From: Clostridia bacterium
GTDB taxonomy: Bacteria; Bacillota; Clostridia; Oscillospirales; RGIG8002
Direction: 5' to 3'
Length of the DNA: 64,000 nt
Assembly (NCBI GenBank): GCA_017620395.1
Contig: JAFZQJ010000003.1
Coordinates: 1 to 64,000 of the forward strand
Part shown: positions 2,685-58,531 of the stretch, piece after piece
Layout of the letters: the number at the start of each line of letters is the position of its first letter
Numbering within the stretch: the first letter of the stretch is position 1
Notes under the pieces: generated by a model
What the model was told of the DNA's origin: nothing
Databases searched by the model: none
Seen by the model: only the letters and a program-made list of their open reading frames with translations
Program-made: the position numbers and the translations under genes

Positions 2685-4949
2685 ATGAAACGGCTTATTT
2701 CAATCATTATCGCTATCGCGATGCTCATCGGGATCGCGCCGCTCGCGGTCTTCGCCGGCGGCGGAAACGACTTCCCGCCGGTGCCCTGCATCAACGAGGG
2801 CAACCCCATCCGCGCGGAAGGCGAATACGAATTCGACTACGACGGCAGCGGGGTCTACATCAACCTCTACACCGGCGCCGCGGGTATGTATACCATCGAA
2901 TCGGAGAGCGATCTCGACCTCTACTGCTACGTCTATGACAGCGAAGGTCAGCAGCTCGGCTACGACGACGACAGCGGCGAATACACCAACTTCAAGTGCT
3001 ACTGCGACCTTGGAAAAAGGACGAACGTATACATTTACGTCGGCATGTGGGGCTCCTCCTCGGGCCACGTGAAGGTCACCGTATCGCGCTCCGACGTGCA
3101 GAGCGTCGACGTCATCAGCTGGCCGACGAAAACGACCTACCTGCCGAACGATCGCAATCCCGACCTTGCCGGTCTCACGTTCAGGATAAACTACGCGAAC
3201 GGCGACAAGGCGACCTGGATGCCCGCTTCCGGCGAGTACTCCGACGTTGAATCCCCCGACGGCGTCATATGCAAGGCCGATTTTGAAGACGAGCCCACGG
3301 CGGGCTGCGCCAACCGCGTCATAATCGAATGCTACGGTTTCAGATTCGTCTACGACGTCAGCTTTCTCTCCTACAACTTCGACGAGGCGCGCGTCACCCG
3401 TATGCCCTACAGAACGGAATACATCGTCGGGCTCGATAACCACAGCTTCTACCCCGACGGCATGCTGATACAGTTCTGTAAAAACGGCTCGCCCGTAGAA
3501 ACGGTCAACTTCCGCAACGATTCGCCCACGCATCCGTTCTTTCAGGATTACGTCTTTCCCGACGAGTACTCGCTCGGCGATAACACGGTCACGGTCAGAT
3601 TCACCAACGGCGTCACCGCCGAGCTGACCGTTACCGGCATCGAGAATCCCTATAAGTCCATCGAGTTCGTCAAGCTTCCGGACAAGACCGTCTACGACAC
3701 CACGCCCAACGGCTTCTTCCCCGCTCCCGACCTCACCGGCGCGGTGCTGCGCATCCATTACAAGAACGACGATTATTACGACTACACGTTCGAAAATAAC
3801 TACGACTGGCAGATACTCGGGCATTATTACATGTGCGACTTCGAATCGGGGCTCTCGGTCGGAACAAACACCGTTATGTTCGAATACTGCGGCATGACCT
3901 GCTCCTTCAACGTCACCGGCACCGCGTCCAAGATAAAGAGCATCGAGCTGACGAAGCTCCCCGACCACACCGTCTACTATATCGGCGAACAGTATCCCTC
4001 GATCAAGGGCGCGGTCCTGAAGGTCAACTACACGGACAACACCTATAAGACCATCGTCTTCAAAGACGACACCAGATACGTCGACGGCTTCTATATCGAC
4101 TTCTGGTTCGACGGCGACATCACGGTCGCCGGCGCGAACACCGCCACGCTCTGGTACGGCGGCGAGAGCGTCACGATCGACGTCACCTTCGTGGAGAGCG
4201 GTATCAAGCGCATAACCGTCGCGCAGGAACCCTACAATAACGAATTCGCCCTCTCCTCCGTCGTCAGACCCGAGGACCTGGACGGCCTCGTGCTGAACGT
4301 GACCTATAAAGACGGCACGACGGAAAGCTGGGACTTCACCGCGAACGGCGGTATCTTCAAGGGCACGCAGACCTTCAGCGCCGCTTATATCCAGCACGAC
4401 GGCTACAACGCCGTGACGCTCGACATGGCCGGCAATCACGCGACGATCTATCTGCTCGCCAAAGACTTCTACGTCATGCAGCGCGAAATAATCAACAACG
4501 CCGACGCCTTCGGCAACAACGCCACGATCAAGTTCACGCTCGAGGACGGCAAAACGTTCGAGGTCACCTTCGTCGGCAAATATAACGAAAACGACTACGC
4601 GACCGGCTTCTTCACCCTCCCCGGATACGGCACCTTCAGCTACGACCTCTACCGCAACGTCACGCTGACCGGAGTCAAGGGCGTCAACGTCTACGTCTTC
4701 CAGAACAACGAACCGATATTCGTGCCTATGGAAGAAGGCGGCGTTTCCAAGGGCGATATGGACGGCGACGGCGAGATCACGGTCGCCGACGCGCTGAAAG
4801 CGCTCCGCATCGCCGCCAAGCTCGTCGCCCCGACCGCGCAGGATATCACGCTCGGCGACGTCGATAACGACGGCGAGATAACCGTAGCCGACGCGCTGAA
4901 GATACTCCGCGTCGCCGCGAAGCTGGCTCCTCCGAGCAGTCTTGGATAA
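2685..4949 (+). CDS. Secreted multi-domain protein: PPC-like domain, four Ig-like repeats, C-terminal dockerin
   Basis: 754 residues. A signal peptide (residues 1-24, ending AVFA) is followed by a PPC-like beta-sandwich (about 35-130, GVYINLYTGAAGMYTIE). Then come four repeats of an Ig-like unit (bacterial group 3 type) from about 140 to 600; each begins like KSIEFVKLPDKTVY and continues DLTGAVLRIHYKN. The C-terminus (about 690-754) has two calcium-binding loops, GDMDGDGEITVADALKALR and GDVDNDGEITVADALKILR, typical of a type I dockerin. No catalytic domain is seen. The Ig repeats suggest a stalk or adhesion role, and the dockerin suggests docking to a cohesin-bearing scaffold, but no cohesin is in the window. 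First gene of a two-gene unit with the next protein (44 bp apart). The near-identical signal peptide and dockerin point to shared ancestry. Confidence 0.8.
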   Translation: MKRLISIIIAIAMLIGIAPLAVFAGGGNDFPPVPCINEGNPIRAEGEYEFDYDGSGVYINLYTGAAGMYTIESESDLDLYCYVYDSEGQQLGYDDDSGEYTNFKCYCDLGKRTNVYIYVGMWGSSSGHVKVTVSRSDVQSVDVISWPTKTTYLPNDRNPDLAGLTFRINYANGDKATWMPASGEYSDVESPDGVICKADFEDEPTAGCANRVIIECYGFRFVYDVSFLSYNFDEARVTRMPYRTEYIVGLDNHSFYPDGMLIQFCKNGSPVETVNFRNDSPTHPFFQDYVFPDEYSLGDNTVTVRFTNGVTAELTVTGIENPYKSIEFVKLPDKTVYDTTPNGFFPAPDLTGAVLRIHYKNDDYYDYTFENNYDWQILGHYYMCDFESGLSVGTNTVMFEYCGMTCSFNVTGTASKIKSIELTKLPDHTVYYIGEQYPSIKGAVLKVNYTDNTYKTIVFKDDTRYVDGFYIDFWFDGDITVAGANTATLWYGGESVTIDVTFVESGIKRITVAQEPYNNEFALSSVVRPEDLDGLVLNVTYKDGTTESWDFTANGGIFKGTQTFSAAYIQHDGYNAVTLDMAGNHATIYLLAKDFYVMQREIINNADAFGNNATIKFTLEDGKTFEVTFVGKYNENDYATGFFTLPGYGTFSYDLYRNVTLTGVKGVNVYVFQNNEPIFVPMEEGGVSKGDMDGDGEITVADALKALRIAAKLVAPTAQDITLGDVDNDGEITVADALKILRVAAKLAPPSSLG

Positions 4950-4993
4950 GTTTTTGAAGCAAGCGCACGATATCCATAATTACGGAGGAAAAA

Positions 4994-6697
4994 ATGAAAC
5001 GCATTCTTTCAATTATAACGGCGTTCGCGATGCTCATCGGGATCGCGCCGCTTGCGGTCTTCGCGGACGGCGGGAAGCCGGTTGAATCGAGCTTTAACAT
5101 CACCTACGATCCTTCGATGGTAATCGCCACCACCCGCCTGACCGGCAAAGACGTATCAAAAATGCTGAGGCTCGCCGTCACCTCGCTCAAGAGCACCGAC
5201 TATTACGGCGACGATCAGGGCTGGTACGTTTACGCGAATCTGAACGCGGACGACAGCGAATACACCTCGCTCGGATATTTCGAAGACGACCGTTTCCGCA
5301 GTCTTGCGGATTCGGACGAGTACCTGACCTTCGGCAGAGAGTATTATTACGAATTCAACGTCGAGAATACGAGCGGTTATATCTGGGACGTAGACAATCT
5401 GCCGGCCGTGACGGTCAACGGCAAACCCGCCGACGTCAGATGGAGAAACCATGACGAAACCGGCGATATCGACGTCTTCGTCAAGGCGCCGCTCGACGAC
5501 AGCGGCCACGCCGTCGCGCAAGTCAAAGTAAATCCCGATCACGCCATAGTTCAGCGCGGAACGCAAAAGCAGTTCTCGCTCGAGGCGCTCGGCACCTCTA
5601 ACTCCGCCGAATGGACGGTCATCGGCGCCGAAAGCGCGTCTACGCGAGTCAGCTCCGGCGGCCTGCTCACGGTCGCCGCAAACGAGACCGCGAGCCTCAT
5701 CCTCGTCAAAGCGTCCTCCGCTTATTCGACCGCGTGGGCGCAGGCGCAGGTAACGCTCATTGACGAGCCCGTCAGAATCGACAGCGTTACGCTCGACGTT
5801 TCCGCCGCGGTCGTTCCGAGAGGCGGCGCGCTGGATATCGAAGCGACCGTCACCGGTACGGACGTGCTCGACGTCGAATGGACGCTCGACGGAGACGGCA
5901 TGGATCCCGGAACCGAACTGACGGCCTTCGGCTCGTCCGCGCGCCTGAACGTTTCGGTGAACGAAGGGGAAAAGGTCCTGACCGTCACCGCGCGCTCCGT
6001 CGCCGACCCCACGAAATTCGCGGTCGCAAAAATCACCGTCGGCCCCGGCGTCCCGGTCCCGTCGAGCATCAACGTCGAATATGACGCGGCTCAGGTCGCG
6101 CTCACGACCGCGACGACCGGAAAAGAAGCCACACAGGCGCTCCGCGACTCGCTGATCTCGGTTCACGGAACGGAATCATACCGCCCGGGTGAAACCTGGT
6201 ACGTTTACTGCAACGCCAACGCCGAAGACAGCGTCTACACCTGCATCGGCTTCTTTGACGAATACGGCGCCTTCGTAACGCTCAACGACAGCGACGAGCC
6301 GCTTTCGGCGGACGTACAGTATTATCTCTGGTTCAACGTCGAGAACTGCTCCGGCTGCGAATGGGACGTCGACAACCTCCCGGCCGTGACGGTAAACGGC
6401 GCAAAAGCGGACTTAATCACATGGAGAACACATGACTACAACGGCGACGTCGACGTCTTCATCAAGGCTGACGTCGCGCCCGCCGGCGCTCTGAAGGGCG
6501 ACTTCGACGGCGACGGCGAAATCACCGTCGCGGACGCGCTCTACGCGCTCCGCATAGCCGCGAAGCTCGTTCCCGAAACGCTCGAAGCTATCGCCGTCGG
6601 CGATACGGACGGCGACGGACGCCTCACGGTTTCCGACGCGCTGGCGATACTGCGCGTCGCCGCGAAGCTGGCAACCCCCGGTTCGCTTCAACAGTAA
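4994..6697 (+). CDS. Secreted protein with duplicated terminal domain, Ig-like core and dockerin
   Basis: 567 residues. The signal peptide (1-24) is almost the same as that of the gene before it. A domain at about residues 33-170 (segments GWYVYANLNADDS and WDVDNLPAVTVNG) is repeated at about 355-495 (TWYVYCNANAEDS and again WDVDNLPAVTVNG), so the protein has an internal duplication. Between the copies lie two Ig-like domains (starting QVKVNPDHAIVQRGTQKQFS and SVTLDVSAAVVPRGG). A dockerin closes the protein (about 500-567: GDFDGDGEITVADALYALR and GDTDGDGRLTVSDALAILR). The function of the duplicated domain is unknown; ligand or carbohydrate binding is a guess. A GGAGG site precedes the ATG. 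It is probably co-transcribed with the 2685 gene, as no promoter or terminator is visible in the 44-bp gap. Confidence 0.78.
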   Translation: MKRILSIITAFAMLIGIAPLAVFADGGKPVESSFNITYDPSMVIATTRLTGKDVSKMLRLAVTSLKSTDYYGDDQGWYVYANLNADDSEYTSLGYFEDDRFRSLADSDEYLTFGREYYYEFNVENTSGYIWDVDNLPAVTVNGKPADVRWRNHDETGDIDVFVKAPLDDSGHAVAQVKVNPDHAIVQRGTQKQFSLEALGTSNSAEWTVIGAESASTRVSSGGLLTVAANETASLILVKASSAYSTAWAQAQVTLIDEPVRIDSVTLDVSAAVVPRGGALDIEATVTGTDVLDVEWTLDGDGMDPGTELTAFGSSARLNVSVNEGEKVLTVTARSVADPTKFAVAKITVGPGVPVPSSINVEYDAAQVALTTATTGKEATQALRDSLISVHGTESYRPGETWYVYCNANAEDSVYTCIGFFDEYGAFVTLNDSDEPLSADVQYYLWFNVENCSGCEWDVDNLPAVTVNGAKADLITWRTHDYNGDVDVFIKADVAPAGALKGDFDGDGEITVADALYALRIAAKLVPETLEAIAVGDTDGDGRLTVSDALAILRVAAKLATPGSLQQ

Positions 6698-6851: not shown

Positions 6852-7412
6852 ATGAGCATTTTCGATTCCCTCAAAAAGACGGCTGAAAACGTCGTCAGCG
6901 GCTTCAAAAAGGAGCAGAAGACCGAGACCTTCACCTTCGCCGCGCTGCCCGAAAGCGTCGACGAGATGAAGGCGCTGCCCGAAGGCGCGCTCGACACCCC
7001 CTTCAAGACCGCGGCTCTGTCGATCTGCGCGCTCTGCGCCTACGCCGCCGCGCCCGAGATCGGCACTCAGATGCTGGACTTCCTCAAGGGGCCCCAGCCG
7101 CTGAGCCCGCTCAACAAGCAGTTCCTGCGCGACCGCTTCATGGACGGCAGCACCTACGTCCCCTTCTCCTATTTTGAAGGCGCCGTCCCCGGCAACGACT
7201 ACACCCCCACCGAGCCATTCAAGGTGACCTTCTTCACCAACCCCTACTCCTTCGATAACGAGGGCTACGTCAAGCTCTTCGTCCGCTCCGGCGGCGCCGA
7301 CAGCGAACGCTACCTCGTGCTTCGTCAGAAGGGCGAACAGTGGTTCCTGTGGGAGTACGAAGGCCTGCTCTCCGGCATCCGCAAGCCGAAGTCGCAGGAT
7401 CCGTGGGCGTAA
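6852..7412 (+). CDS. Conserved-looking cytoplasmic protein of unknown function
   Basis: 186 residues, no signal peptide or TM segment. It starts MSIFDSLKKTAENVVSGFKK (amphipathic helix), then an alpha-helical part with SICALCAYAAAPEIGTQMLDF, and a beta-rich C-terminal half containing VTFFTNPYSFDNEGYVKLFV and RYLVLRQKGEQWFLWEYEG. I do not recognise a characterised family with certainty; similar short proteins occur in gut Clostridia. The ATG is supported by AAAGGAAAA nine bases upstream. It stands alone: a repeat separates it from the dockerin pair, and a strong terminator follows at 7510. Confidence 0.7.
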   Translation: MSIFDSLKKTAENVVSGFKKEQKTETFTFAALPESVDEMKALPEGALDTPFKTAALSICALCAYAAAPEIGTQMLDFLKGPQPLSPLNKQFLRDRFMDGSTYVPFSYFEGAVPGNDYTPTEPFKVTFFTNPYSFDNEGYVKLFVRSGGADSERYLVLRQKGEQWFLWEYEGLLSGIRKPKSQDPWA

Positions 7413-10491: not shown

Positions 10492-12828
10492 TTACGAAAT
10501 CGTTACCTTGACCTCGTGCCTGCCGCCCTCGAACAGAGGCAGACGCGCTCCTTCGATAGCTTCGCCGTCGACAGAAACGGAAACGGCGCCCTTCTCGAGC
10601 CCCTTCGGGTTCTCGATCGTGATGTCGTATTCCGCGCCGCGATAGACGCGCTTGACGGCGCAGTGTTTGAACTCGGCGGGCAGGCAGGGATCGATGACGA
10701 TGCCGCCGAAATCGGGCTTGACGCCGAGCATTTCGTTCAGCAGAACGGTGGTGAACCACGCGACCGAGCCGGTGATCCAGGTGAACTCGGTGATGTACGC
10801 GCTGTTCTTGTGGTCGGGCCCGAAGTAGCAGTTGGCGTACATGAAGGGCGGGTTGTTATCCTTGTTGTCGTCCGCGGAGACGAGGTATCCGGGCGAGACC
10901 TTCTTGAAGAGCTCGTAGGCGAGGTTGCCCTTGCCGATGCGGAGCAGGCCGAGGATCATCCAGATATTGAGGTGGGAATAGATGGTGCCGTTCTCGGCGA
11001 TGCCGGGCTCCATGCTGCTGATCCTGCCGATGCCGGGATCGAATTCGCGGAAGCAGGGTGCGAGAAGCAGGTAGCCGTATTTGCTGCCGAGCAGACGGTC
11101 GCAGGTCTTTATGACCTGCTCGGCGCGTTCGCCCGTGGCGACGCCGGAGATGAGGCTCCAGCACTGCGGCTCCATGAAGATCTCGGCGGCCTTCGCGCCG
11201 GCGGCGCCGACCTTCTTGCCGTAGTCGTCGATGCAGCGGATGTATCTGTCGCCGTCCCACGCTTTTTCGTTGATGACGGCCTTCATATCCTCCATACGCG
11301 CGAGGTAGTCCGCCTCCGCGTCCTTTTCTCCGAGGTAGTTCGCGAGCGCCGCCATTTCGGTCAGCGCCTCGACGTAGGCGATGCTGAGCCAGACGCTCTC
11401 GCCTCTGCCCTCCTTGCCGGTGCCGGTAAGGGAGTCGTTCCAGTCGCCGAACTTGATAAGCAGCAGGCGGTCGGCGCCCTTGTTGCTCTCGAGGAAGTTC
11501 AGCGCGCGGTCGATGTGGCCGCGGACGGTGGCGCTGCCGCCGTCGTAGAACGGGACTTCTTCTTTAAGCAGGTCAAAGTCGCCCGTCTCGCGCAGGTACG
11601 CGATGAGGGTGAAGACGAGCCACATCGCGCTGTCGGAATACGCCTTTTCGTCTATCGGGTTCCAGCCGCGGACGGCGAGGCCGCTCGAATACTGGCGCTT
11701 GAGCGCTTCTACGAGGATCTCGCGGGTGCGGGCGGGAGTCTGCGCAGCGCAGCCGAGCCCCTGCTGGACGATGTCGCGGTAGCCGTTGTAGCCCCAGCGG
11801 CCCCAGGCGGCGCCGTAGAGGTTCGCCTGCTTCGCCCATACGTTGATGAGGCGGTCGAAGTGCTCGTCCGGAGTCGTCGCCTTGTTCTTGCCGATGACGG
11901 AGGCGAAGTACGCCTTGACCTCGGCGAGCAGCGAATCGAGCCTGCCTATGTACTTATCCTTGAACGCCTTGACCTCGGCGGGCGAATCGACGACGCCGAC
12001 GACGATCTCGACGTTCTTCTTCTCGCCGGCGGCGAGCTTGTAGTTATACTGCGCGGCGCCCACGGTCGCTTCCGCGGAGCCCTCGGTGTTCGTGCAGCTT
12101 CCGGCGGCGACGGCGTCCGGCGCGGCGAGCGAGCCGTATCTGCCGACGAAGGCGGCGCGGCTGCCGTCGAACGCGGCGATCTTCTCATCCGACGCGAAGA
12201 AGGCGGTCAGGTGGTTGTGCGGCTTGATGAAGGGGTGCTTCGTGGCGACGATGGCGTTGTTCTCCTTGTCGAAGACGACGCTGCGGTAGATCATATCGCC
12301 GTAGCTGTCGAAGCCCCACTTGAAGGAAAACTGATACTGGTTATAGCAGAAAACGGAGATATCGCGCTCTCTGCCGGAGACGTTCTCGAAGGAAAGCTTC
12401 CAGAGCTCCGCGGGCACGGGGCCGACGGGCAGGAAGACGGTCATTTCGGCGGCGATGCCGTTGGTCTGATTGCGGATTATCGAGTAGCCGAGCCCCTGGA
12501 CACACTCGTATTTCTCATACTTCGCCTTTATCGGCTCCCAGTTGAGAGTCCAGAACTCGCCGGTCTCGTTGTCGCGGATGTAGATAAGGCGGCTCATGAG
12601 GTGGTCGCGGCCGAAGACGTCGAAGTCGCAGATGCGGCCGATGCCGGTGTAAAGCTGAACCGCTTCCTTGTCGCCTATCTGATAGTCGAACCAGCCGATG
12701 CCGGTCTGCTCGACGTTCGCCTGCGAGCACTCGTTGAACAGGAAGTTGTCGAACGCTCTCGGGCAGTCGGGACGGGTAACGATGAACTCGGTGCCGTCGG
12801 AATTGAAATGTCCGTACTTGTAATCCAT
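10492..12828 (-). CDS. GH94 glycoside phosphorylase, candidate for beta-linked GlcNAc or glucose disaccharides
   Basis: 778 residues, the usual length of GH94 (cellobiose / chitobiose phosphorylase clan). The N-terminal beta-sandwich begins MDYKYGHFNSDGTEFIVTRP. The (alpha/alpha)6 barrel carries YGAAWGRWGYNGYRDIVQQG, RGWNPIDEKAYSDSAMW, the catalytic-Asp segment KFGDWNDSLTGTGKEGRGES (about 460) and EPGIAENGTIYSHLN. A C-terminal jelly roll closes it. The enzyme should use phosphate to split a beta-linked disaccharide into a sugar-1-phosphate and a sugar inside the cell; there is no signal peptide. Substrate is not readable from motifs. The neighbours glmM and nagB argue for an amino-sugar substrate such as N,N'-diacetylchitobiose. 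First gene of its operon, with its own promoter at 12848-12876. Confidence 0.85.
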   Translation of the reverse strand: MDYKYGHFNSDGTEFIVTRPDCPRAFDNFLFNECSQANVEQTGIGWFDYQIGDKEAVQLYTGIGRICDFDVFGRDHLMSRLIYIRDNETGEFWTLNWEPIKAKYEKYECVQGLGYSIIRNQTNGIAAEMTVFLPVGPVPAELWKLSFENVSGRERDISVFCYNQYQFSFKWGFDSYGDMIYRSVVFDKENNAIVATKHPFIKPHNHLTAFFASDEKIAAFDGSRAAFVGRYGSLAAPDAVAAGSCTNTEGSAEATVGAAQYNYKLAAGEKKNVEIVVGVVDSPAEVKAFKDKYIGRLDSLLAEVKAYFASVIGKNKATTPDEHFDRLINVWAKQANLYGAAWGRWGYNGYRDIVQQGLGCAAQTPARTREILVEALKRQYSSGLAVRGWNPIDEKAYSDSAMWLVFTLIAYLRETGDFDLLKEEVPFYDGGSATVRGHIDRALNFLESNKGADRLLLIKFGDWNDSLTGTGKEGRGESVWLSIAYVEALTEMAALANYLGEKDAEADYLARMEDMKAVINEKAWDGDRYIRCIDDYGKKVGAAGAKAAEIFMEPQCWSLISGVATGERAEQVIKTCDRLLGSKYGYLLLAPCFREFDPGIGRISSMEPGIAENGTIYSHLNIWMILGLLRIGKGNLAYELFKKVSPGYLVSADDNKDNNPPFMYANCYFGPDHKNSAYITEFTWITGSVAWFTTVLLNEMLGVKPDFGGIVIDPCLPAEFKHCAVKRVYRGAEYDITIENPKGLEKGAVSVSVDGEAIEGARLPLFEGGRHEVKVTIS

Positions 12829-26726: not shown

Positions 26727-29060
26727 TCAGGCAATGCGATAAGCGAGAGACTGATAGGCGATCATGTTGCCGGAGGCGTCATAAGCGTAAACGTACAGCG
26801 TGGCGTTTACACTGGTCACGTCAAAGTCCGCGGAATAGAAGTGATACGCTCCGTCCGCAAACCAGATGACGCTGCCGTTAGAATTGCTGATCAGCGTTCC
26901 GGATGCGCTGCCGTCGGAAGTCTCGTTGATGACGTCATACTTATAAATACCGGACGCATAGGTCGCAGCGTCGGTGTCGTCAAAGTCCTTCGTGATGAAG
27001 CGCGGATAACCCTGGCCGACGCTGAACACGACGGCCGCTCTGTATGTCGCGGCGTTAACGTCCTTGACTATGACCTGATTATCGGCGTCGACAGTGAACA
27101 GATCGGTGGACGCGGCAATCTTGGAAACGACGGCGTTCGCGCCGAGCGTTACGCTGTCGTTGAGCGTGGCGAGCGCAGCGCTGCCGCCGGTGATGTTGCC
27201 GTTGCAGCCAAACGCTCTGGCATCCTTGGAACCGATGATAGTGCCGTTCATAACGTTGCCGGTGCTGGTAACGGCTCCGCCGTTGGGAGCGGAACAGTTG
27301 TTAAGGAACGCGCTCGCGTGCGGCGCGACGACGCTGCCGTTGAACGTGCAGTTCGTCACGGACGCGGTCACCTGAGTTCCCTGAACGTATCCGAACAGGC
27401 CGCCGACGTAACCGTCGGAATTGGAGCTGGCAATGCTCAGATTATTCACGATTTTGTCGGCGGAAATCACAACGGTATCGCCGCTGCGATAGTAGGCGCC
27501 GAACGCATACGCGACCAGAGGGCCGAAGTGTGAAGCACTGTTGCCGATGATCGTACCGGCAAGGGTAAGATCGTGGAAGCTCAAGTTGTAGCTATCGACG
27601 TTCTGATTGCACGCGTAGCCGACGACAGCGGTGCCGACGCCGGTGTAGGCGATGGTTCCGTTGTAAATCTCTATGTTACGCGCATATCCGTACATGTACT
27701 TGGTTCCGAGGGTAACGGTCTTTCCGCCGAGGTCTATGGCGAAGGTTCTGGGATCGCCGGTCAGCCAGGAATGAGCCCAGTTGGTTCCGTCCTTAGCCGC
27801 GAAGTTGATATCCTCGGTCACCTTGTAATAAACCTTATCGGTGCCGGTCTCGGGATAAGAGCTTCCGATGCCGACGTCAACGTTGACCAGCTGATAGTAA
27901 GTGCCGATCAGATAAGGATACGCCTCGGTGCCGAGACCGCCGTCGAAGAAGTATTCAGCGGTGAAGGGGCTGAAGGAATCGGTGATGAAGGTAAGCTTTC
28001 CGGCAGTCTGATCGTAATAGTACTTATTCATCGCAACAGCGTCGAGGCTGTCGACCTTCGTCATCTCGGTCGCGTTGTGATAGAAGTGCTGCAGATCGAC
28101 TACGCCGATATCAAGCTCGACCTTGATGCCGGCCGCGCTGGTGACCTTCTCGTTATCCTGATTGGTCAGCGTGACCTCATAGGTCGTGGTGCCGTTGCCG
28201 TCGGTAATCTGGAGATTCGAATCCGGAGTGCCGGGCAGAACGGTCAGGTTGAGGGTGTCGCCGTCGAGAGAATCGCCGTTCTCGGTCGTCGAAGCGGCGG
28301 GAACGGTAGCCTTGGCGTGAGAAGCCTCAAGGACCGTGTCGCCGGTAGCGGAATAAGGCGCGGAAGCGTTCTCAATCGGGAAGTCCGCGTTATCCGGAGA
28401 GCCGTTCGCGTTCGCGTCGTACTGGTCGTTGAAGCTGTCGGACTCGTAGGTGTACTGAGTGGCAAGGATCTTGAGGTCGAAATCGATCTCGCCTTCCTGA
28501 TACTCGTTGCCCGCATTCTCGTCCATATGGATGACGAGCGCGAAGTTGTGGACGTCGCCCGGCTGCATCGGGACCTGGCCGGAAACGGCCTGAGTGCCCG
28601 CGGAAACAGGCAGCGCGCCGGCGGGAACCCAAGCGGTAACTCCGTTCGGGCCGACGGCGTCGGGCTCGATCTTGTAAAGCATCGCTTTGTCAAGATTCTT
28701 GACGATGTTGTAGGTCTCGAGAGCGACCTGATACTTGAGCGCGAGGTTGCCCGCGTTCTTCAGCTGCAGATACGCGATCTGAGTCTTGCCGGGCTCCCAG
28801 AGCGTCGCGGTGCTGTTCTGAGCAAGGTTCGCTCCCTGGAAGATCGGGGCCTGACTGTCGCTGATGTCGACGTAGGCGCCGGCGGTCTCGTCGTACTTCC
28901 AAAGCTCGAGGTCAAGCTTACCGGAAATAATCTTGTTTCCGGCGCTGGTCACGGAATCCGTAAACCACGCAAAGGTCGTACCCGCCAGCATAGTGAAGCA
29001 CATCACGAACGAAAGGAAACTGCAGATGAACGCGCGCTTCGCTGACTTTTTCTTTGTCAT
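26727..29060 (-). CDS. SipW-class (TasA/CalY-like) surface protein with beta-helix region
   Basis: 777 residues. The N-terminus MTKKKSAKRAFICSFLSFVM followed by LAGTTFAWFTDSVTSAGNKI is the SipW-type signal, where the cut falls near TFAWFTD. Residues about 45-215 fit a TasA/camelysin-like jelly roll (SGKLDLELWKYDE, WEPGKTQIAYLQLKNAGNLA). About 270-370 is another beta domain. From about 400 to 650 the chain is beta-helix-like with GLUG-type motifs (GYVGGLFGYVQG). It is likely a cell-surface or matrix fibre protein. No sipW peptidase or partner tasA gene is next to it. Composition looks less GC-biased and more Asn/Thr-rich than the neighbours, which may mean transfer or just surface-protein bias. 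A GGAGGAATG site precedes the ATG, and there is a strong promoter upstream. Confidence 0.82.
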   Translation of the reverse strand: MTKKKSAKRAFICSFLSFVMCFTMLAGTTFAWFTDSVTSAGNKIISGKLDLELWKYDETAGAYVDISDSQAPIFQGANLAQNSTATLWEPGKTQIAYLQLKNAGNLALKYQVALETYNIVKNLDKAMLYKIEPDAVGPNGVTAWVPAGALPVSAGTQAVSGQVPMQPGDVHNFALVIHMDENAGNEYQEGEIDFDLKILATQYTYESDSFNDQYDANANGSPDNADFPIENASAPYSATGDTVLEASHAKATVPAASTTENGDSLDGDTLNLTVLPGTPDSNLQITDGNGTTTYEVTLTNQDNEKVTSAAGIKVELDIGVVDLQHFYHNATEMTKVDSLDAVAMNKYYYDQTAGKLTFITDSFSPFTAEYFFDGGLGTEAYPYLIGTYYQLVNVDVGIGSSYPETGTDKVYYKVTEDINFAAKDGTNWAHSWLTGDPRTFAIDLGGKTVTLGTKYMYGYARNIEIYNGTIAYTGVGTAVVGYACNQNVDSYNLSFHDLTLAGTIIGNSASHFGPLVAYAFGAYYRSGDTVVISADKIVNNLSIASSNSDGYVGGLFGYVQGTQVTASVTNCTFNGSVVAPHASAFLNNCSAPNGGAVTSTGNVMNGTIIGSKDARAFGCNGNITGGSAALATLNDSVTLGANAVVSKIAASTDLFTVDADNQVIVKDVNAATYRAAVVFSVGQGYPRFITKDFDDTDAATYASGIYKYDVINETSDGSASGTLISNSNGSVIWFADGAYHFYSADFDVTSVNATLYVYAYDASGNMIAYQSLAYRIA

Positions 29061-32160: not shown

Positions 32161-34482
32161 TTACCCTATCTGATAGAAGCAAAGCCGTCCGTTCTCCGTA
32201 CAGACGACGGCGCGTGTGCCGTCAGTCGAGAGGGCGCATCCGGACGCAAAGCCCGAGACGCCCTTCAGCTCGTACTTCACGTTCAGCTCCGCGTCGCAGA
32301 AGAACGCCTTGCCGTCGTAGCCCGCGCTTAGCACTCCGCCGCGCACCGACGCCTCGCAGACGGAGGCGCCGTGAAGGGCGCGTACCGCGGTTATCTCGAC
32401 CGGTTCGCCGAGCGCGTAGCGCCTCAGCGCTCCGTCGCCGCCCGCGGTGTAAAGCGCGCCGCCGGACGCGTATATCCCGTTTATCGCGCTCAGGCAGTGA
32501 GACGAAGTATAGTACCTGACGTTCACGTAGATATCCCACAGCATAAGCTTGCCGGAGGCGTCGCCGCTGGCGAGGGCGCCGTCGTTTATGAATTTCAGCG
32601 CGGTCACGGCGCAGTCGTGTCCGTTGAAATAGGTGAAGAGCTTGCGCGAGCCCGTATTGTAGACGCGGACGTAGCCGTCGTTGAAGCCTATCGCGAAGCG
32701 GTCGCCGGAGAAATTGATCGCCGCGGAACGCGGAGCCGATTCGGCGTTTATCACCGCGAGCGACTCGCCGCTGTCCGCGCTCCATATGCGTATCGTGCCG
32801 TCCCGCGCACCGGTCACGCACACGCCGGAAACCGCGAGCGCGCCGCAGGTTATGCTGTCGGTATGACCGGAGAGGGTTTTATACGCGCCGGAGAGACAAT
32901 CGACGACGTAGGCGTTCCTGCCGCCGCGGCAGAGCACCAGCAGCAGGTCGCCGCCGCGCCCGGGCACAAGCGAGGTAACGGTGCCCTCGAAGCCGGAGAC
33001 ACCCATATATTTCACGCCGTTTCCGGTGTAAAACTCAACTCCGTCAGCGACCGCGACGGCGAAACCGCCGTTGACCGCGGCGGCTCCGTGGCAGACTCCG
33101 CCCGCTGAGGCGGTCGCCATAGGATCGATCGGCGTTCCCCCGCCGGCGGGGGACATCGTTTCGCCCCTGGGCTTCCGGAATTTTACGTAGTCTATGCTTT
33201 CGGAATACGGCGGCGCAAAGCCCTCGATCGAGAGCGTCATCAGCGTGCCGGTGAACGAAGCGCGCGCGGCGTCGGTGGTGACGTTGAAGACCGAATACAT
33301 GACGCCGTCGAAGTAGAACCGTATCTGTTCGGCGTCCCATTCGACCGCGTATTCGTGCCAGCCGTCCAACTCCGCGCCGAGGCCGAGCTGCCCGTGCTTT
33401 ACGGTCGTCGCACCGTCGGTAAAGGAAACGCCGCAGCGCAGCGTTCCGTCCGCGACGGAGTTGTCGAAAACGTCCACACGCGCCGCTTCGCCGGTGGCGG
33501 TCAGCGCGGTCATATACGCGCGCGCTCCCTGCTTCAGACGCGCCTTTATCTCTATCCTGCCGCCGTCGAACACCCAGCTGCCGTCTGTCGTCAGGTCGTT
33601 GCCCTTTCGCGTCCACATTGCCGAGATGAAGCCCGGCTCGAAATTATCGACGAAAACGCTCTGCCAGGATACCCCGTCCACCTCATAGATGAACCAGGCG
33701 TCGTCATCCATCAGCTCCTCCCTCTCAAGAACAAGCTGACCGTGATACATATTCAGCACTCCGCCGTAGGGGATCGAAGTTATAACGTACCTGCCGCTTT
33801 CCGCCTTTTTGACGTCCCAGCGACGTCCCGCAACGAAGCCGGAGTCGCGCAGCATCGGGTAGCCGCCGACCTCGGAAAGCATTTTGCCCGAGGATTTTGA
33901 AATGATGTAATACCCGCCCTCCGCGGCCGGTATGAAGAGGAATTCCTGCGAATTCGAATCGCGGCGCTCCTCGTGATATATCGTCATATCGGGCGTAACG
34001 ACGGTGTTAAAGCCGTCCGACGTCCGCACGGTACGCGAGTCGGTAACGTCCGGCGCGGCGCGTACCGCGTTGTCGTCCGCGGCGTAGACGATCTTGTAGA
34101 AGCTGCTTGTCTTCAGGCTGCCGGCGGCGGTCTCCGAATACCCCTCGCGCTCGATATTGCAGGCGACGGAATTGCGGAGCAGCTCCGACATACGCGCGTA
34201 GTACTGCTCGTCCGTCTCGCTCTGTTCGCTGCCGGAATCGCTCGAGGATTCGGAAACGTCGTCCTGCGAGAACTCCGACCAGCCGTAGTTGTAGCGGTGA
34301 TCGCTGTAGCTTCTGGAACCGAACCGGTAGGGTTCCTTTTTGCCGACCGCCATAAGCACAACGAGCAGCGCGACTATCAGCGCGAGCGCGATAACGGGCA
34401 AGAAAAGAAGCTTCGAGCCCGCCCACGCGGGCCCGAAGCCTTGTGAAAACTTATTTTTGATATTCTCAAAAAAATTCTTCAT
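32161..34482 (-). CDS. Membrane-anchored protein with ricin-like, catalytically degenerate GH16-like and WD40-like propeller domains
   Basis: 773 residues. One N-terminal TM anchor (about 25-47, LLFLPVIALALIVALLVVLM) and a Ser/Glu-rich stalk. Residues about 185-270 look like a ricin-type trefoil (EGGYYIISKSSGKMLSEVGG, RYVITSIPYGGVLNMYHG). Residues about 285-430 follow the GH16 laminarinase fold (GGRIEIKARLKQGARAYM, HEYAVEWDAEQIRFYFDGVM). However, where active enzymes have ExDxxE this protein has R335-V-D337-V-F-D340, so both catalytic glutamates are lost and binding rather than hydrolysis is expected. The rest (about 450-773) is a WD40-like propeller (GHTDSITCGALAVSGVCVTG, DGTIRIWSADSGE, GHDCAVTALKFINDGALASG). 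It starts 7 bp after the permease gene without a clear ribosome site, so coupling is likely. Last gene of the operon; probably an outer-face sensor or ligand-binding partner of the transporters (inference). Confidence 0.72.
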   Translation of the reverse strand: MKNFFENIKNKFSQGFGPAWAGSKLLFLPVIALALIVALLVVLMAVGKKEPYRFGSRSYSDHRYNYGWSEFSQDDVSESSSDSGSEQSETDEQYYARMSELLRNSVACNIEREGYSETAAGSLKTSSFYKIVYAADDNAVRAAPDVTDSRTVRTSDGFNTVVTPDMTIYHEERRDSNSQEFLFIPAAEGGYYIISKSSGKMLSEVGGYPMLRDSGFVAGRRWDVKKAESGRYVITSIPYGGVLNMYHGQLVLEREELMDDDAWFIYEVDGVSWQSVFVDNFEPGFISAMWTRKGNDLTTDGSWVFDGGRIEIKARLKQGARAYMTALTATGEAARVDVFDNSVADGTLRCGVSFTDGATTVKHGQLGLGAELDGWHEYAVEWDAEQIRFYFDGVMYSVFNVTTDAARASFTGTLMTLSIEGFAPPYSESIDYVKFRKPRGETMSPAGGGTPIDPMATASAGGVCHGAAAVNGGFAVAVADGVEFYTGNGVKYMGVSGFEGTVTSLVPGRGGDLLLVLCRGGRNAYVVDCLSGAYKTLSGHTDSITCGALAVSGVCVTGARDGTIRIWSADSGESLAVINAESAPRSAAINFSGDRFAIGFNDGYVRVYNTGSRKLFTYFNGHDCAVTALKFINDGALASGDASGKLMLWDIYVNVRYYTSSHCLSAINGIYASGGALYTAGGDGALRRYALGEPVEITAVRALHGASVCEASVRGGVLSAGYDGKAFFCDAELNVKYELKGVSGFASGCALSTDGTRAVVCTENGRLCFYQIG

Positions 34483-51641: not shown

Positions 51642-54600
51642 TTATCCGAGGCTGCTTTCGTCGGCGAGCTTCGCGGCGACGCGGAGGATCTTCAGCGCGT
51701 CGTTGACGGAGATCTCGCCGTCGCCGTCAGTGTCCGCTATCAGCATATCCTCTTCGGTCGCGACCGCGAGTCTCGCGGCGATACGCAGCGCCTTCAGCGC
51801 GTCGTTGACCGTGATCTCGCCGTCGCCGTCCATGTCGCCTTTCTTATACTCCGGAGGCGGCGGGGTCTGCTCCTTGATCTCGAAGCGCACCGTGACGCTC
51901 TTGTCGCCGTTGACGACCCTGAGTGCGTATAAGCCGGGTTCGCTCACCACGACGCCGCTCTCGACCGCTTCTCCGTTCAGCACGCCCTCTCCGACGTCCC
52001 AGGTGATCGTGACGGGCTCCTCGTAAACGCCGCTTCCTACGACGCCGGCGACCACAGGCATCGTGTACTCATCTTCGCCGCCGGTGACGGTGAAGGTGAC
52101 GGTCGTGCGCTTATCGCCGTTTATCAGCTCGAGGGTGTGCTCGCCGTTTTTCTCAACGGCGGCGTCGACGGGGAAGAATTCGCCGTCGAGTATCGCGGCG
52201 CCCGCGTTCCACGCGGGAACGAGCGGCCGCTCGGAAACGTCGTAAACGCCGCCGTCTTCGATATTGGACGCGGCGGGGACTTCCCACTCGCCGGCGGTCA
52301 CGTTCTTATACGCGTGGATGCCGGTTACGTAAATCTCCGCGCCCTGCTTTATCTCTCCGTTGAAGCGGATGACGTAGAAATAGATCCTGGCGAGGTCGAT
52401 CTCCTGGCCGTTGGTCCACTCGTCGTAACGCTCGAAGCACTCCCACGGGATATATATCCAGCCGCTGCCGGACGCGGGAAGCGGGATATGCAGGGTCGAA
52501 CGCTCGAAGAGCGGGCTTACCTCGCAGTTCGACACGCCGAAGCGCAGCGTGCCCTCGCGGATCAGCGACATATCGTTGACGCCTACCCAGAGGCAGATCC
52601 CGTCGGTGCCGGTCAGGTCGCCGATAAGGGTGTTCGCCTTCGGATCCTCCGGCGTGCCCATCTTCAGAGGCACTACCCTGTTCGTGCCGGCCTCTCTGTA
52701 CATCGCCGCGAACTGGAGGATGCCGTTGACGCTTTCGTCGTCGACGCTCTTATCTTCAAGAGATGTCATTTTCAGCGCCTTCGCGTAGCCCTCGGGGAGC
52801 TTGTCGAAGTCGGAGTCGAGCGAATAGCTCACCATGTTGCTGCCGCCGGTCGCTCTGTTCAGGTCGCGGGTGGTGTAATCCTCAAAGCTGTAAATGCTCG
52901 TGACCTTCCCGCCCGCTTTTATCGGAACGAGCCCGGCGATCGCGGCATCGAGCGTTTCTATTCCCGCGTTGAAGTCGCGAAACGTGCCGCCGTATTCAAG
53001 CAGTTCCTCCGCCTGTTCGAGCGCAAGCTTCAGCTCGCGGTAGCTCGCGGAGGTCACGTTGCCGCGCCAGCAGGCCGCGCCGCATTTATACAGCGCCTCG
53101 AGCCGCACCACCACTTTCGGAGGCGGAGCGACGCCGCCGTAGGTCAGCCTGCGGACCGCGTTATCGATATTGTTGACGGCTTCCTCGACGTCTTCCTCAG
53201 TCGCGCCGTAAACGCCGAGCAGAGCGCGTCCGTCTTCGATCGCGCTCAAAACTCTGTTCCATGAATTGATCATATATTCGCCTCTGTCGAGCGTCGCCAA
53301 ATACGCTTCGGTTTTGGCGATCTTCGCTTTGAGCGGGCCGAAATCCGCGGACGACGTGCTCCACGTGAAGCCGCCGAGATCCCCGATATAGTAGAGTCCG
53401 GCCGTTTGGCCGAGATAAATATAGATCGTGTCGAACTCGTCGATGCGGTCGTAAACGTCCTCGTCGCCGTCGACGTCGTAGAAAGCGGACCACGGAACGC
53501 CGATATATCCTTCACTGTCGGGCAGGGCGACCGATCCGTCTTCGCTCTCGAAGTACAGGCCTTCGGAGGAAACGCCGAGGCCGACGCGGAGATCCTCCGG
53601 CGCTCCGTCCATCGCCTCTCCCCACTTGATCCAGAAGCGGAGGCCGGCGGCGCTGCTGAGCGGCGCGGAGCCCTCGAGCGGCTCGAAGGGATTTTTGACC
53701 GCGCCGTCTTCGACGGCGTTGGTGAAGCAGCTGTAGCCGTAAAGCGGCTCGCCGTCGAGCGGCTGCGCGAGGATCATAACGGACTGATCGCGGTTTTTCG
53801 GAACGTTCTCATCTTCGACCGCAGCGGTGTCGAAGCAGACGCCGCCGTTCATAATTTCATCGAAGTCGTCGTCGTCCCAGACCTCAAAGCCGGCGAGCTT
53901 CACGTCGTTTTTGGCCGCCTTGAACATCGGCTTGAGCGCTTTCAGCGCGAGTTTCAGCTCGCGCGCCGCCGCGTCGATCTGCTTCTGGTCGCATCCGGTG
54001 TGATCCAGCAGCATTCCGTATGCGCTTAGGTACGCCTCGGTCGCGGCGGCGTAGGTCTCCTCGGTGTACGCCTCGGGATCGAGGGCGTCATAAGCGGCGC
54101 ACTGCTCCTCAAGCTCGTCGAGATGCAGGCGCGTATCCCTGTACGCGCGCCAGTCGCCGATATACAGCGTGTCGCCCGTCTGCAGCCCGCTGAAGGTGAT
54201 CTGGAAGCCGTTGAGCCGCGCGATCACACTGTACGGGATCGGGTATTTGCCCATTCCGAACGCGTTGACGCCGTATTCGTCGGTAGTCCACCAGTCGACC
54301 TGCTTATAATCCGTTTTGAAATCAAAGTAGAAATAACCGTCCTCGTCCGGACGTATCATATCGGTCTCGTAAACGGAGCCGATCCCGTATCCGCTCATAT
54401 CGGTCGAGCCGTCCTCGCTGGCGATATAGAAGGGCCCCCTCGCGGGAACGTCGTAGATCGTGACCTTGGCGGTCCCGACGAAAGCGCCGCCGTTCAGCCC
54501 CGCCCAGAAGCAGAAGCCCTGAGAATCGGCGAAAGTCAGACCGGTATCGCCGAAGATATCCTTACCGTTCGGCTTATCCTTCGCCGCCCAGTTCGGACTG

Positions 54601-54950
54601 TCGAGCTCCATGCCCTGCGTGTTGTTCTCGGGCGCGGTGTTGCGCAGACGGACGGACGAAACGGAGCTGCACCCCCACGCGTCGGCGCCGGTAACGGTGA
54701 ACGACTGCACCGCTTCAACCCCGCCGCCGGCGGGCAGGCACGCGCCGCTGCTCCCCGCGTAGGACGCGCGCGGCATCCACGCGAGCGCGAAATCCGCCGC
54801 GTCGAACGCGTCGAGCCCGGGGATACGGGTATATTCGTAGTAATCGAAAAACTCGGCGCCCGCGCCGAGCGCGCCTCCGAACAGCGACGCCGCGCCGAAC
54901 GCGGTCAGCGTAATAAGAGACGCGAGCAGCATTGAAACGAATCTTTTCAT
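51642..54950 (-). CDS. Giant secreted CBM-like/FIVAR-like/Ig-like dockerin protein, paralogue A
   Basis: 1102 residues. Signal peptide MKRFVSMLLASLITLTAFGA, cut after about 31. Then beta-sandwich modules with CBM-like wording (about 80-235; 330-490; 660-830, e.g. GICLWVGVNDMSLIREGTL), separated by FIVAR-like helical repeats (YTEETYAAATEAYLSAYGML; YMINSWNRVLSAIEDGRALL; YWRGNVTSASYRELKLAL...). Two Ig-like domains follow (GEHTLELINGDKRTTVTFTV; TITWDVGEGVLNGEAVESG), then a dockerin (about 1037-1102: GDMDGDGEITVNDALKALR; DTDGDGEISVNDALKILR). No catalytic domain. Probably a cell-surface or scaffold-associated glycan-binding protein. It is the most divergent of three adjacent paralogues. RBS AAGGAG; upstream regulatory box at 55023-55088. 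Confidence 0.78.
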   Translation of the reverse strand: MKRFVSMLLASLITLTAFGAASLFGGALGAGAEFFDYYEYTRIPGLDAFDAADFALAWMPRASYAGSSGACLPAGGGVEAVQSFTVTGADAWGCSSVSSVRLRNTAPENNTQGMELDSPNWAAKDKPNGKDIFGDTGLTFADSQGFCFWAGLNGGAFVGTAKVTIYDVPARGPFYIASEDGSTDMSGYGIGSVYETDMIRPDEDGYFYFDFKTDYKQVDWWTTDEYGVNAFGMGKYPIPYSVIARLNGFQITFSGLQTGDTLYIGDWRAYRDTRLHLDELEEQCAAYDALDPEAYTEETYAAATEAYLSAYGMLLDHTGCDQKQIDAAARELKLALKALKPMFKAAKNDVKLAGFEVWDDDDFDEIMNGGVCFDTAAVEDENVPKNRDQSVMILAQPLDGEPLYGYSCFTNAVEDGAVKNPFEPLEGSAPLSSAAGLRFWIKWGEAMDGAPEDLRVGLGVSSEGLYFESEDGSVALPDSEGYIGVPWSAFYDVDGDEDVYDRIDEFDTIYIYLGQTAGLYYIGDLGGFTWSTSSADFGPLKAKIAKTEAYLATLDRGEYMINSWNRVLSAIEDGRALLGVYGATEEDVEEAVNNIDNAVRRLTYGGVAPPPKVVVRLEALYKCGAACWRGNVTSASYRELKLALEQAEELLEYGGTFRDFNAGIETLDAAIAGLVPIKAGGKVTSIYSFEDYTTRDLNRATGGSNMVSYSLDSDFDKLPEGYAKALKMTSLEDKSVDDESVNGILQFAAMYREAGTNRVVPLKMGTPEDPKANTLIGDLTGTDGICLWVGVNDMSLIREGTLRFGVSNCEVSPLFERSTLHIPLPASGSGWIYIPWECFERYDEWTNGQEIDLARIYFYVIRFNGEIKQGAEIYVTGIHAYKNVTAGEWEVPAASNIEDGGVYDVSERPLVPAWNAGAAILDGEFFPVDAAVEKNGEHTLELINGDKRTTVTFTVTGGEDEYTMPVVAGVVGSGVYEEPVTITWDVGEGVLNGEAVESGVVVSEPGLYALRVVNGDKSVTVRFEIKEQTPPPPEYKKGDMDGDGEITVNDALKALRIAARLAVATEEDMLIADTDGDGEISVNDALKILRVAAKLADESSLG

Positions 54951-58200: not shown

Positions 58201-58531
58201 TGTTGTTCTCCGGATCGGCGTTGCGCTGACGCATGGTGCCGAGGGAGGCTCCGCCGTACTTATCCGGCGTCAGAACCGTGAACGACGCCACGTTCTCGAC
58301 GGGGTTGCCCGCCGGCAGACAGTCGGAAGACAGGCCGGCGAATTCGAGGCCGTTCTTCCACGCGAGCGCGTAGTCGTCCGCGTTGAAGGCGTTGAGGCCC
58401 GGGAACTGCGTGTATTCGTAATAATCGAAGAACACGGCGCCCGCGCCGATCGCTCCTCCGAATACCGTCGCAGCGCCGAACGCGGTCAGCGTCATCAGCA
58501 CGGCAAGCAGTGTTGAGATGAATCTTTTCAT
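55220..58531 (-). CDS. Giant secreted CBM-like/FIVAR-like/Ig-like dockerin protein, paralogue B
   Basis: 1103 residues from the ATG at 58531 (MKRFISTLLAVLMTLTAFGA), with AAGGAGG eight bases upstream; an eight-codon upstream extension is rejected. The order of domains equals paralogue A: CBM-like sandwiches (e.g. GICLWVGVNDVNLVQECAMR), FIVAR-like helices (EEYTEESYAAALEVYLAAFE; YYYVSWNQAEQAIDYGRSLL; YWRGNVTPRSYIALKEQIED), Ig-like domains (GEHTLVVTNGDKSSTVHFTT; LTLNWSVGTATLNNQPVENG) and a dockerin (GDMDGDGEITVNDALKALR; GDVDGDGDITVNDALKILR). Closely similar to paralogue C in the central modules (YYIADLTGFEWS in both). Own promoter box and terminator. The ligand is unknown. Confidence 0.8.
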   Translation of the reverse strand: MKRFISTLLAVLMTLTAFGAATVFGGAIGAGAVFFDYYEYTQFPGLNAFNADDYALAWKNGLEFAGLSSDCLPAGNPVENVASFTVLTPDKYGGASLGTMRQRNADPENNTQNADYHGSPNWTANDKLNGKDIFGDSGVTFDEASGFCFWVAVNGDRYDGKIKISLFGAPTKGPYYRSSEDGSTDMGEYDRGFVYSSDFVTPDEDGYYYFGFRTDFSQTDWWSTDDNGVNQYKVGKSPVPDKTLPYVNALEIRFNSGLEAGYTLYVGDFRTFRDTRVYVDELDELCAIFDELNPEEYTEESYAAALEVYLAAFEMLQDASSYSQKRINAMAVSLNTAIRDLKPMFHAEMKSVKLAGFEVWDDDDFEEMMDGGLCADTPAVDEDNVPASREQSVLVYANAIDGEPYYGWSCFTNATEDGAVKNPFELLEGSEPLSASAGVRFWLKWDESMTELPAACRIGLGVSADELEFECEDTAVRLPEKQGYVGVAWSAFYDLNGEEDIYDWIDEIDTIYIYLEGASGIYYIADLTGFEWSYAPADFTELISVINAKADYMATLNKADYYYVSWNQAEQAIDYGRSLLDAYGTTDEEVSKAISDIEKAINSLTLLGELADEPTIKELQGLCKSGKTYWRGNVTPRSYIALKEQIEDAEALLFKGPKQDEAEATIAALKAAIAGLVPIKAGERVTSIHSFENYTSRELSRANGDRKPDVTYELDSTYPKLPAGYAKALKMTATQDMSSETNMEHGMMQFKAMYREGGTPDGHPHPLMMEGNGATAVNTLIGDLSGTAGICLWVGVNDVNLVQECAMRFAVSNCEASPLFERAAINIPIPATGQGWIFLPWEYFEYYDGWTKGEEINLAKIFFYIIRFDGAIKAGLEVYITGIHAYKDAAADSWKTPVIANITEGADYDVSEQELIPDWDVGAAMLDGEFLIYGAPVLQNGEHTLVVTNGDKSSTVHFTTTGAVEYDTPVVNVENGKEYAAPLTLNWSVGTATLNNQPVENGFVVEAPGGYVLEVVNGTKSVSVRFTVTTDAPPAVKKGDMDGDGEITVNDALKALRIAARLAESTPEALEIGDVDGDGDITVNDALKILRVAAKLADEGSLG

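Follow-up and report, generated by a model that had tools for sequence, protein, structure and literature searches.

Two secreted dockerin proteins of a rumen Clostridia genome as likely subunits of a genome-wide cohesin-dockerin complex with partly homogenized dockerins

The first 64,000 bases of contig C3 of a small rumen Clostridia genome (C3:1-64000 of genome G000; hereafter the window) encode two adjoining secreted proteins, named here 2685 and 4994 after their start positions, whose C-terminal dockerins follow the pattern found in an array of three other proteins at 51-62 kb. Neither Pfam nor our own cohesin profile listed a cohesin match in the window. The locus thus raises the question of what these dockerins plug into, and of how such similar docking modules come to sit on dissimilar proteins. 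G000 is a draft metagenome-assembled genome (MAG) of 1.93 Mb in 35 contigs, estimated at 98.7% completeness. We favor the possibility, at a probability of roughly three in four, that 2685 and 4994 are secreted and, by domain scans, non-catalytic subunits of a genome-wide cohesin-dockerin complex, in which the dockerins of one subgroup have been homogenized by exchange between genes.

The two genes (2685-4949 and 4994-6697, both on the forward strand) lie head to tail with a 44 bp gap, adjoin a tRNA-Thr on the opposite strand, and are probably one operon. Open reading frame (ORF), Pfam and NCBIfam analyses of 2685 (754 residues) gave a signal peptide, a sub-threshold Big_3-like part and a C-terminal dockerin (4752-4928) consisting of two F-hand repeats, both with V-A at positions 10-11. 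The 4994 protein (567 residues) has a signal peptide, a duplicated domain, immunoglobulin (Ig)-like parts and a C-terminal dockerin (6497-6673) with V-A and V-S in its two repeats. Duplicated GDxDGDGxxTVxDAL...LR.AAKL motifs are found at both C-termini. The duplicated domain of 4994 is 143 residues long and its two copies (5081-5509 and 6056-6484; 51% identical) flank sub-threshold matches to the Ig-like families I-set and Big_2. An AlphaFold2 (AF2) model of the first copy reached a predicted local distance difference test score (pLDDT) of 75, and with a best Foldseek expectation value (E) of 0.47 and a best VIA-align Z of 4.8 no function could be assigned to it. No relative of 4994 was found among named genomes, and Pfam and NCBIfam scans found no catalytic domain in either protein. 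Besides the dockerin, the signal peptide is the only part that the two share (79% identity over 28 residues, E 4e-9). The gene that comes next after the pair encodes a DUF6935 protein (6852-7412, forward strand; E 6e-57).

The array proteins are encoded on the reverse strand at 51642-54950, 55220-58531 and 58888-62211, with C-terminal dockerins at 51663-51839, 55241-55417 and 58909-59085. They form one family, with three body modules common to the array and a FIVAR-like part, and their bodies are 50-61% identical to each other. The best matches of 2685 and 4994 to these bodies (E 0.33 and 4.7) identify them as unrelated. The sequence-only reading of this DNA was thus right in assigning one dockerin pattern to otherwise unrelated proteins, the signal peptide shared by 2685 and 4994 apart, and both Pfam and the control profile described below agree with it. 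Its description of the dockerins as near-identical was a mild overstatement; they are clearly alike, at 75% identity between 2685 and 4994, 75-78% between 2685 and the array, 69-73% between 4994 and the array, and 83-85% within the array. The Pfam family Dockerin_1 (PF00404) was matched by 2685 and 4994 at E 6e-5 and 9e-4. In whole-protein scans 2685 scored 23.6 bits, above the cut-off of 22.9, and the other four window dockerins scored 12.9-22.3 bits, below it; in a genome-wide Dockerin_1 search four of the five were above the cut-off. A control profile made from 59 dockerins of G000, with the window's own left out, recovered five strong domains among 452 window frames (E 4e-31 to 5e-28); run against 9,040 composition-shuffled frames, it gave none. 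By profile match together with two F-hand calcium repeats, all five are type I dockerins.

Candidate partners are encoded elsewhere in the genome. A Pfam cohesin search of G000 gave five matches, one of them below cut-off, and a profile built from six cohesins of this genome found six ORFs with eight strong cohesins between them, on five contigs other than the window's; two of the eight, both on C35, were not part of the search profile. These cohesins match solved type-I-like cohesins, with a best E of 7e-12. The architectures of the six proteins, read by eye, are as follows: the C35 protein has two cohesins and the C32 protein has one cohesin and a linker, and both end in a membrane-type segment and are without a dockerin; on C8, a protein with two cohesins and a dockerin neighbors one with a single cohesin and a dockerin; the C28 protein combines leucine-rich repeats (LRR), a dockerin, Big_3-like repeats and a cohesin; and the C22 adaptor (324 residues) joins a cohesin to a dockerin of the type seen in the window array. 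One of the C8 proteins and the C35 protein have two cohesins each, and none with more was found in G000. Judging by their hydrophobic C-termini with basic tails, again read by eye, the C32 and C35 proteins appear to be surface-anchored. A weak cohesin match on C30 (13 bits) was dropped; its host resembles a signaling protein, which we take to be of the GGDEF/EAL type. At the C8 locus (L018, G000:C8:9000-19519) the two adjoining scaffoldins have long CxxC-containing repeat runs between cohesin and dockerin. After them come two proteins whose dockerin is N-terminal and which are, by eye, SGNH/GDSL esterase-like.

The five window proteins are members of a set of about 80 dockerin proteins in G000. 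Pfam Dockerin_1 gave 94 matches at E<=1; the stretches fetched around these matches hold at least 79 dockerins of 50 or more model positions, and at a looser limit 81 ORFs had a dockerin match, 74 of them with a signal-peptide-like start by a crude rule. Residues at the recognition positions, which we assume to be 10, 11, 12, 18 and 22 in the usual numbering, were counted by model column. They are highly conserved, with V10 in 78/78 first and 75/79 second repeats, D12 in 77/78 and 79/79, and R18 in 78/78 and 78/79, while position 11 is mostly S, A or N. The two repeats of a dockerin carry the same residue at position 10 in 74/78 cases, at 12 in 77/78 and at 18 in 77/78, and less often at 11 (33/78) and 22 (41/68). 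A dual binding mode is known from cellulosomes, and such near-twin repeats would permit one here.

The sequence-only reading had pointed to five dockerins without a cohesin, and had offered as partner either a dedicated scaffold elsewhere or something other than a cohesin. The first statement holds for the 64-kb window but not for the genome, and eight cohesins in six ORFs on other contigs, along with the conserved recognition residues, support the dedicated scaffold. The grounds on which that reading would have given up a cellulosome-like role, a complete genome lacking cohesins and recognition residues that are not conserved, do not apply here. We consider it unlikely that the partner is something other than a cohesin, such as a glycan or a different surface protein, as has been suggested for ruminococci poor in cohesins. 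There are only eight cohesins for about 80 dockerins, and for Ruminococcus albus 58-90 dockerins with 0-1 cohesin have been described and an alternative mechanism proposed (PMC4081043). G000 is like R. albus in having dozens of dockerins and few cohesins; however, it has eight cohesins in six proteins. Furthermore, cohesins are present in all four members of the genus that were searched, a dockerin of this type is found on four of the six cohesin proteins, and the recognition positions are strongly conserved. With cohesin proteins in the genome, an exotic partner is therefore not needed.

The system is not confined to one genome. The GlmM gene of G000 is 93% identical to that of the goat-rumen Clostridia MAG RGIG3742 and 90% identical to that of the water-buffalo rumen MAG RGIG8183, with the next relative, Oscillospiraceae SIG709, at 59%. 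Among 59 genomes of the order, all four genus members have 7-16 cohesin matches each (fragments included), whereas 12 of the 55 genomes outside the genus have 1-6, mostly weak ones. Three sister species have 65-77 dockerin matches each and, by these sequence matches, carry the same cohesin-dockerin system. The 2685/4994 pair keeps its order and its dockerins in two of the sisters, G002 and G003. The G003 locus (L180, G003:C87:1-9500) is enlarged by two more 2685 paralogs upstream of the pair, which match through to their dockerins.

What such a complex would act upon is suggested by its cargo. Domain tallies covered 80 dockerin proteins (one contig-edge fragment was dropped) and gave the best 25 families per tally, with full lists for 30 of the 80. 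Glycoside hydrolase (GH) family 16 was present in 13 proteins, WD40 propellers in 13, LRR_5 in 14 and GDSL-type hydrolases in 8; single-protein scans directly revealed GH16 and WD40 within one protein. The laminarinase-type ExDxxE motif is intact in all 13 GH16 domains, and the best match of the GH16 profile in the PDB is a laminarinase (E 7e-55). The 30 proteins scanned singly include four of metallo-/purple-acid-phosphatase type, one GH92, two of rhamnosidase type and three of peptidoglycan-hydrolase type, and a tyrosine-phosphatase-like motif was found in five further dockerin proteins. GH16 counts are 16-18 in each of the four genus members as against 0-4 in the 55 other genomes of the order, only 8 of which have any. 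No starch or mucin enzyme families were found among the best 25 families of either dockerin-protein tally. We favor the reading that this cargo is perhaps a beta-1,3-glucan machine.

Several observations touch on this cargo. One locus (L031, G000:C20:27000-46500) encodes five adjoining proteins with a tyrosine-phosphatase-like motif and two Dockerin_1 matches per frame, the internal match differing in type from the C-terminal one. The idea that array proteins and GH16 enzymes have body modules in common was rejected, since 2 of 13 GH16 proteins were matched, with weak E-values and in a small set; a common glucan-binding role of these bodies is only hinted at. In the window itself, a protein encoded at 32161-34482 (reverse strand) has an N-terminal membrane-type segment, a GH16-like part and WD40-like repeats, and is without a dockerin. 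Its GH16 match is partial (C3:33226-33420), with the catalytic columns outside the match, and among relatives of the 13 dockerin GH16 enzymes it may be one that only binds. The genes adjoining it presumably encode a sugar ATP-binding cassette transporter. We take a further window gene, at 10492-12828 (reverse strand), to encode a GH94-type phosphorylase, which would fit the use of beta-glucan oligosaccharides, and the secreted protein of 26727-29060 (reverse strand) has a start that seems to resemble those of SipW/TasA-type biofilm proteins.

The system might instead be the ordinary plant-cell-wall cellulosome of a rumen bacterium. The nearest named genomes do come from the rumen, cohesin and dockerin parts are present, and Ruminococcus flavefaciens also has LRR and unknown dockerin proteins together with a few GH16 enzymes (PMC2930009). 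In its strain FD-1, 222 dockerins fall into several sequence groups, and both GH9 and GH48 are present (PMC2930009, PMC4081043); three strains of the species have 10-17 scaffoldins (PMC4081043). G000 and FD-1 are alike in rumen habitat, many dockerins, mono-cohesin adaptors with a dockerin, and LRR-dockerin and unknown dockerin proteins. They differ in that GH16 is a minority in FD-1 (5 in the published table) and GH9 and GH48 are present, whereas in G000 GH16 is dominant, V10 is found nearly throughout the dockerins and there is no GH9. The same GH9 search that found none in the four genus genomes was positive in 7 of the 55 others. A GH48 search of G000 gave 0 matches, although the control genomes gave none either. 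On this evidence we give an ordinary cellulosome little chance.

How unrelated proteins may have come to share a dockerin is illustrated by the G002 ortholog of 4994. Its body is 93% identical to that of 4994 (439/471) and its dockerin region 76% (52/68), and every 59-residue stretch of the body diverges less than the dockerin does. Over the first 75 bases, the DNA of this dockerin is 87-100% identical to the dockerin of the neighboring 2685 ortholog and 73-80% identical to the window, and its identity to the window rises to 90-100% from about base 120 onward. The pattern looks like a conversion tract. The boundaries of likeness coincide with the dockerin in nine examined pairs (one of them with related bodies), in which DNA identity is 70-100% across the dockerin but mostly 10-57% in the flanks, with one value of 67%.

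Comparisons among genomes extend this picture. Orthologs were taken as reciprocal-best bodies, pairs below 60% body identity were not used (which drops 4994 from the G003 comparison), and G002 and G003 were represented by 61 and 63 dockerins as against 68 and 77 Pfam matches. A same-genome dockerin was nearer than the ortholog by >5 points in 15/42, 23/39 and 20/30 pairs. By the same margin, dockerin DNA was nearer to a same-genome dockerin with an unrelated body than to its ortholog in 12/42, 20/39 and 18/30 pairs. Both measures set many paralogs against one ortholog and so lean towards exchange. In a fairer neighbor test of 175 dockerins (28 of 203 were left out for a short body or dockerin), where the other two genomes supply more candidates, the nearest unrelated-body neighbor lay in the own genome for 89 (10 ties); when a difference of >5 points was required, the count was 23 for the own genome and 3 for the others. 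For 55 of the 175, a same-genome dockerin with an unrelated body was nearer than anything in the other two genomes.

Trees give the same result for a subset. Two of 30 ortholog trios were dropped for dockerins <165 nucleotides; of the remaining 28, 10 form clades, 10 are rejected as clades (approximately unbiased (AU) test, p<0.05; 6 after Bonferroni correction) and 8 are neither. Ortholog descent of the 2685 dockerin (family f20) is rejected at an AU p of 1e-10. Seven G002 dockerins, mostly of V-D type, from seven families on seven contigs, group in a single clade (100/100) to which the dockerin of the C22 adaptor's ortholog also belongs, and the ortholog clades of these families are rejected in that tree. 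The seven families were chosen for the AU test after the pattern had been seen, the array bodies of two of them (f0 and f14) are related, and long branches, including that of f2 in G002, drew a warning from the program. Position 11 differs between the species: N occurs in 19+19 of the 79+79 first and second repeats of G000, in 0+2 of 61+61 in G002 and in 1+0 of 62+63 in G003, whereas D occurs in 10+10 repeats of G002 (20/122), in none of G003 and in at least 2 of G000. We also considered whether cohesins change in step with dockerins; between G000 and G002 the C28 cohesin is 99% identical and three other cohesins 72-75%, and the cohesin of the C22 adaptor in G003 is 49% identical as against 77% for the rest of the protein, but with too few cases this was dropped as an argument. 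Concerted evolution of all dockerins is rejected, given that the ortholog clade persists in 10 of the 28 trios. On the sequence comparisons, then, one subgroup of dockerins evolves in concert and the others descend vertically, and it is the concerted evolution of dockerin DNA that would account for the likeness among unrelated proteins. Gene conversion would be the simplest mechanism of exchange, and a shared cohesin partner would be the selective reason for it. A literature search gave no fitting report of gene conversion or concerted evolution in dockerins.

The likeness could also come from selection at the protein level for one partner, or from slow evolution, with no DNA exchange at all. 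Calcium loops and recognition positions are certainly constrained, 10 of the 28 trios form a single clade, two others fit the constrained tree better than the unconstrained one that was recovered, and codon sharing exceeds the codon-usage expectation in dockerins outside the subgroups as well (0.54 against 0.41). However, synonymous codons agree more inside the subgroups than among other dockerins: at identical residues the same codon is used in 0.72 and 0.68 of cases inside two subgroups (0.67 in the first when a single array member is kept), as compared to 0.68 for orthologs, 0.54 for other dockerins and an expectation from codon usage of about 0.42. The drop of DNA identity to mostly background at both dockerin edges, the seven-family G002 clade with its rejected ortholog clades, and the mosaic in the G002 ortholog of 4994 all argue against this explanation, which we regard as quite improbable. 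Finally, that the dockerin-like tails are structural calcium-binding ends with no partner is very improbable, as nearly all 79 dockerins preserve positions 10, 12 and 18 in each of their two repeats and cohesins co-occur.

A number of points nevertheless weigh against a homogenized, genome-wide complex. With regard to the dockerins, the Pfam scores in the window are modest (12.9-23.6 bits for a cut-off of 22.9), AF2 gave a weak dockerin model (pLDDT 72; predicted template modeling score 0.42), and while its best five Foldseek matches are cohesin-bound dockerins, their E-values are 0.15-0.35 and the root-mean-square deviation is near 9.5. As R. albus illustrates, dockerins need not mean a cellulosome-like complex (PMC4081043). 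A roughly tenfold excess of dockerins over cohesins, in a draft genome, is an odd balance, and the substrate is read solely from domain names and motifs. With regard to exchange, the middle of the G002 4994 dockerin fits neither parent well (60-73% and 63-87%), a search for other mosaics by a strict half-split criterion gave 0/55, a subset of ortholog pairs is affected and only about half of the dockerins in the neighbor test, and beyond the 10 trios that keep their ortholog clade 8 are not rejected, the C22 adaptor (p 0.068) among them.

The scenario that we favor, a genome-wide complex with exchanged dockerins, would work as follows. For the calcium-binding dockerins of 2685 and 4994, the most likely docking partners are cohesins of scaffoldins encoded elsewhere, this binding being predicted. 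One two-cohesin and one single-cohesin protein, each ending in a membrane-type segment, would be the cell-surface anchors, and the four cohesin proteins with a dockerin of their own would act as adaptors or scaffoldins, so that chains can grow. Proteins like 2685 and 4994 would be binding or spacer subunits, and the GH16-WD40, phosphatase, esterase, LRR and Ig-like cargo would direct the complex to beta-1,3-glucan or other non-cellulose substrates. Gene conversion of dockerin DNA between unrelated genes would hold the subgroup on a common docking code.

As a kind, cohesin-dockerin systems are already known, and taken by itself the 2685/4994 locus is unexceptional for such a system; what differs here is the cargo and the concerted dockerins. 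Cohesins and dockerins together were found in 1.5% of the human-gut genomes searched in one study (PMC12997984). Precedent for a non-cellulose substrate comes from the amylosome of Ruminococcus bromii, with five scaffoldins, two of which have sortase signals, and calcium-dependent binding that has been shown (PMC5814915). It resembles the G000 system in its few scaffoldins (six cohesin proteins here), in two scaffoldins with surface-anchor signals (apparent ones here) and in a protein with both cohesin and dockerin. It is unlike it in having five dockerin enzymes, all GH13, where G000 has about 80 dockerin proteins, 13 of them GH16-WD40. A similar line of inference, from a small gut Clostridia genome and the type of its dockerin cargo, led to the Limousia mucinolysome, which growth and expression then supported (PMC12997984). 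Its cargo consists of mucin-glycan hydrolases rather than GH16, phosphatases, esterases and LRR proteins, and of the two systems it is the one with growth and RNA data. A literature search gave no report joining dockerin, cohesin and WD40.

More tentatively, we consider it possible, though on balance doubtful, that this genus of uncultured rumen Clostridia runs a machine for beta-1,3-glucan of fungal, algal or cereal origin on GH16-WD40 enzymes, and that its docking code is rewritten as a set by conversion, adaptor included. The code would then have switched in lockstep between sister species, being V-N/V-A in G000, V-D in G002 and mostly V-A in G003, and their complexes would perhaps be mutually incompatible.

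How dozens of enzymes keep one docking code, and how they change it without breaking the complex, is a question that can be tested in this genus, because its sister species show the same proteins with different, homogenized dockerins. If the GH16 reading is true, beta-1,3-glucan would join cellulose, starch and mucin, the substrates in the accounts drawn on here, as a substrate of cohesin-dockerin complexes.

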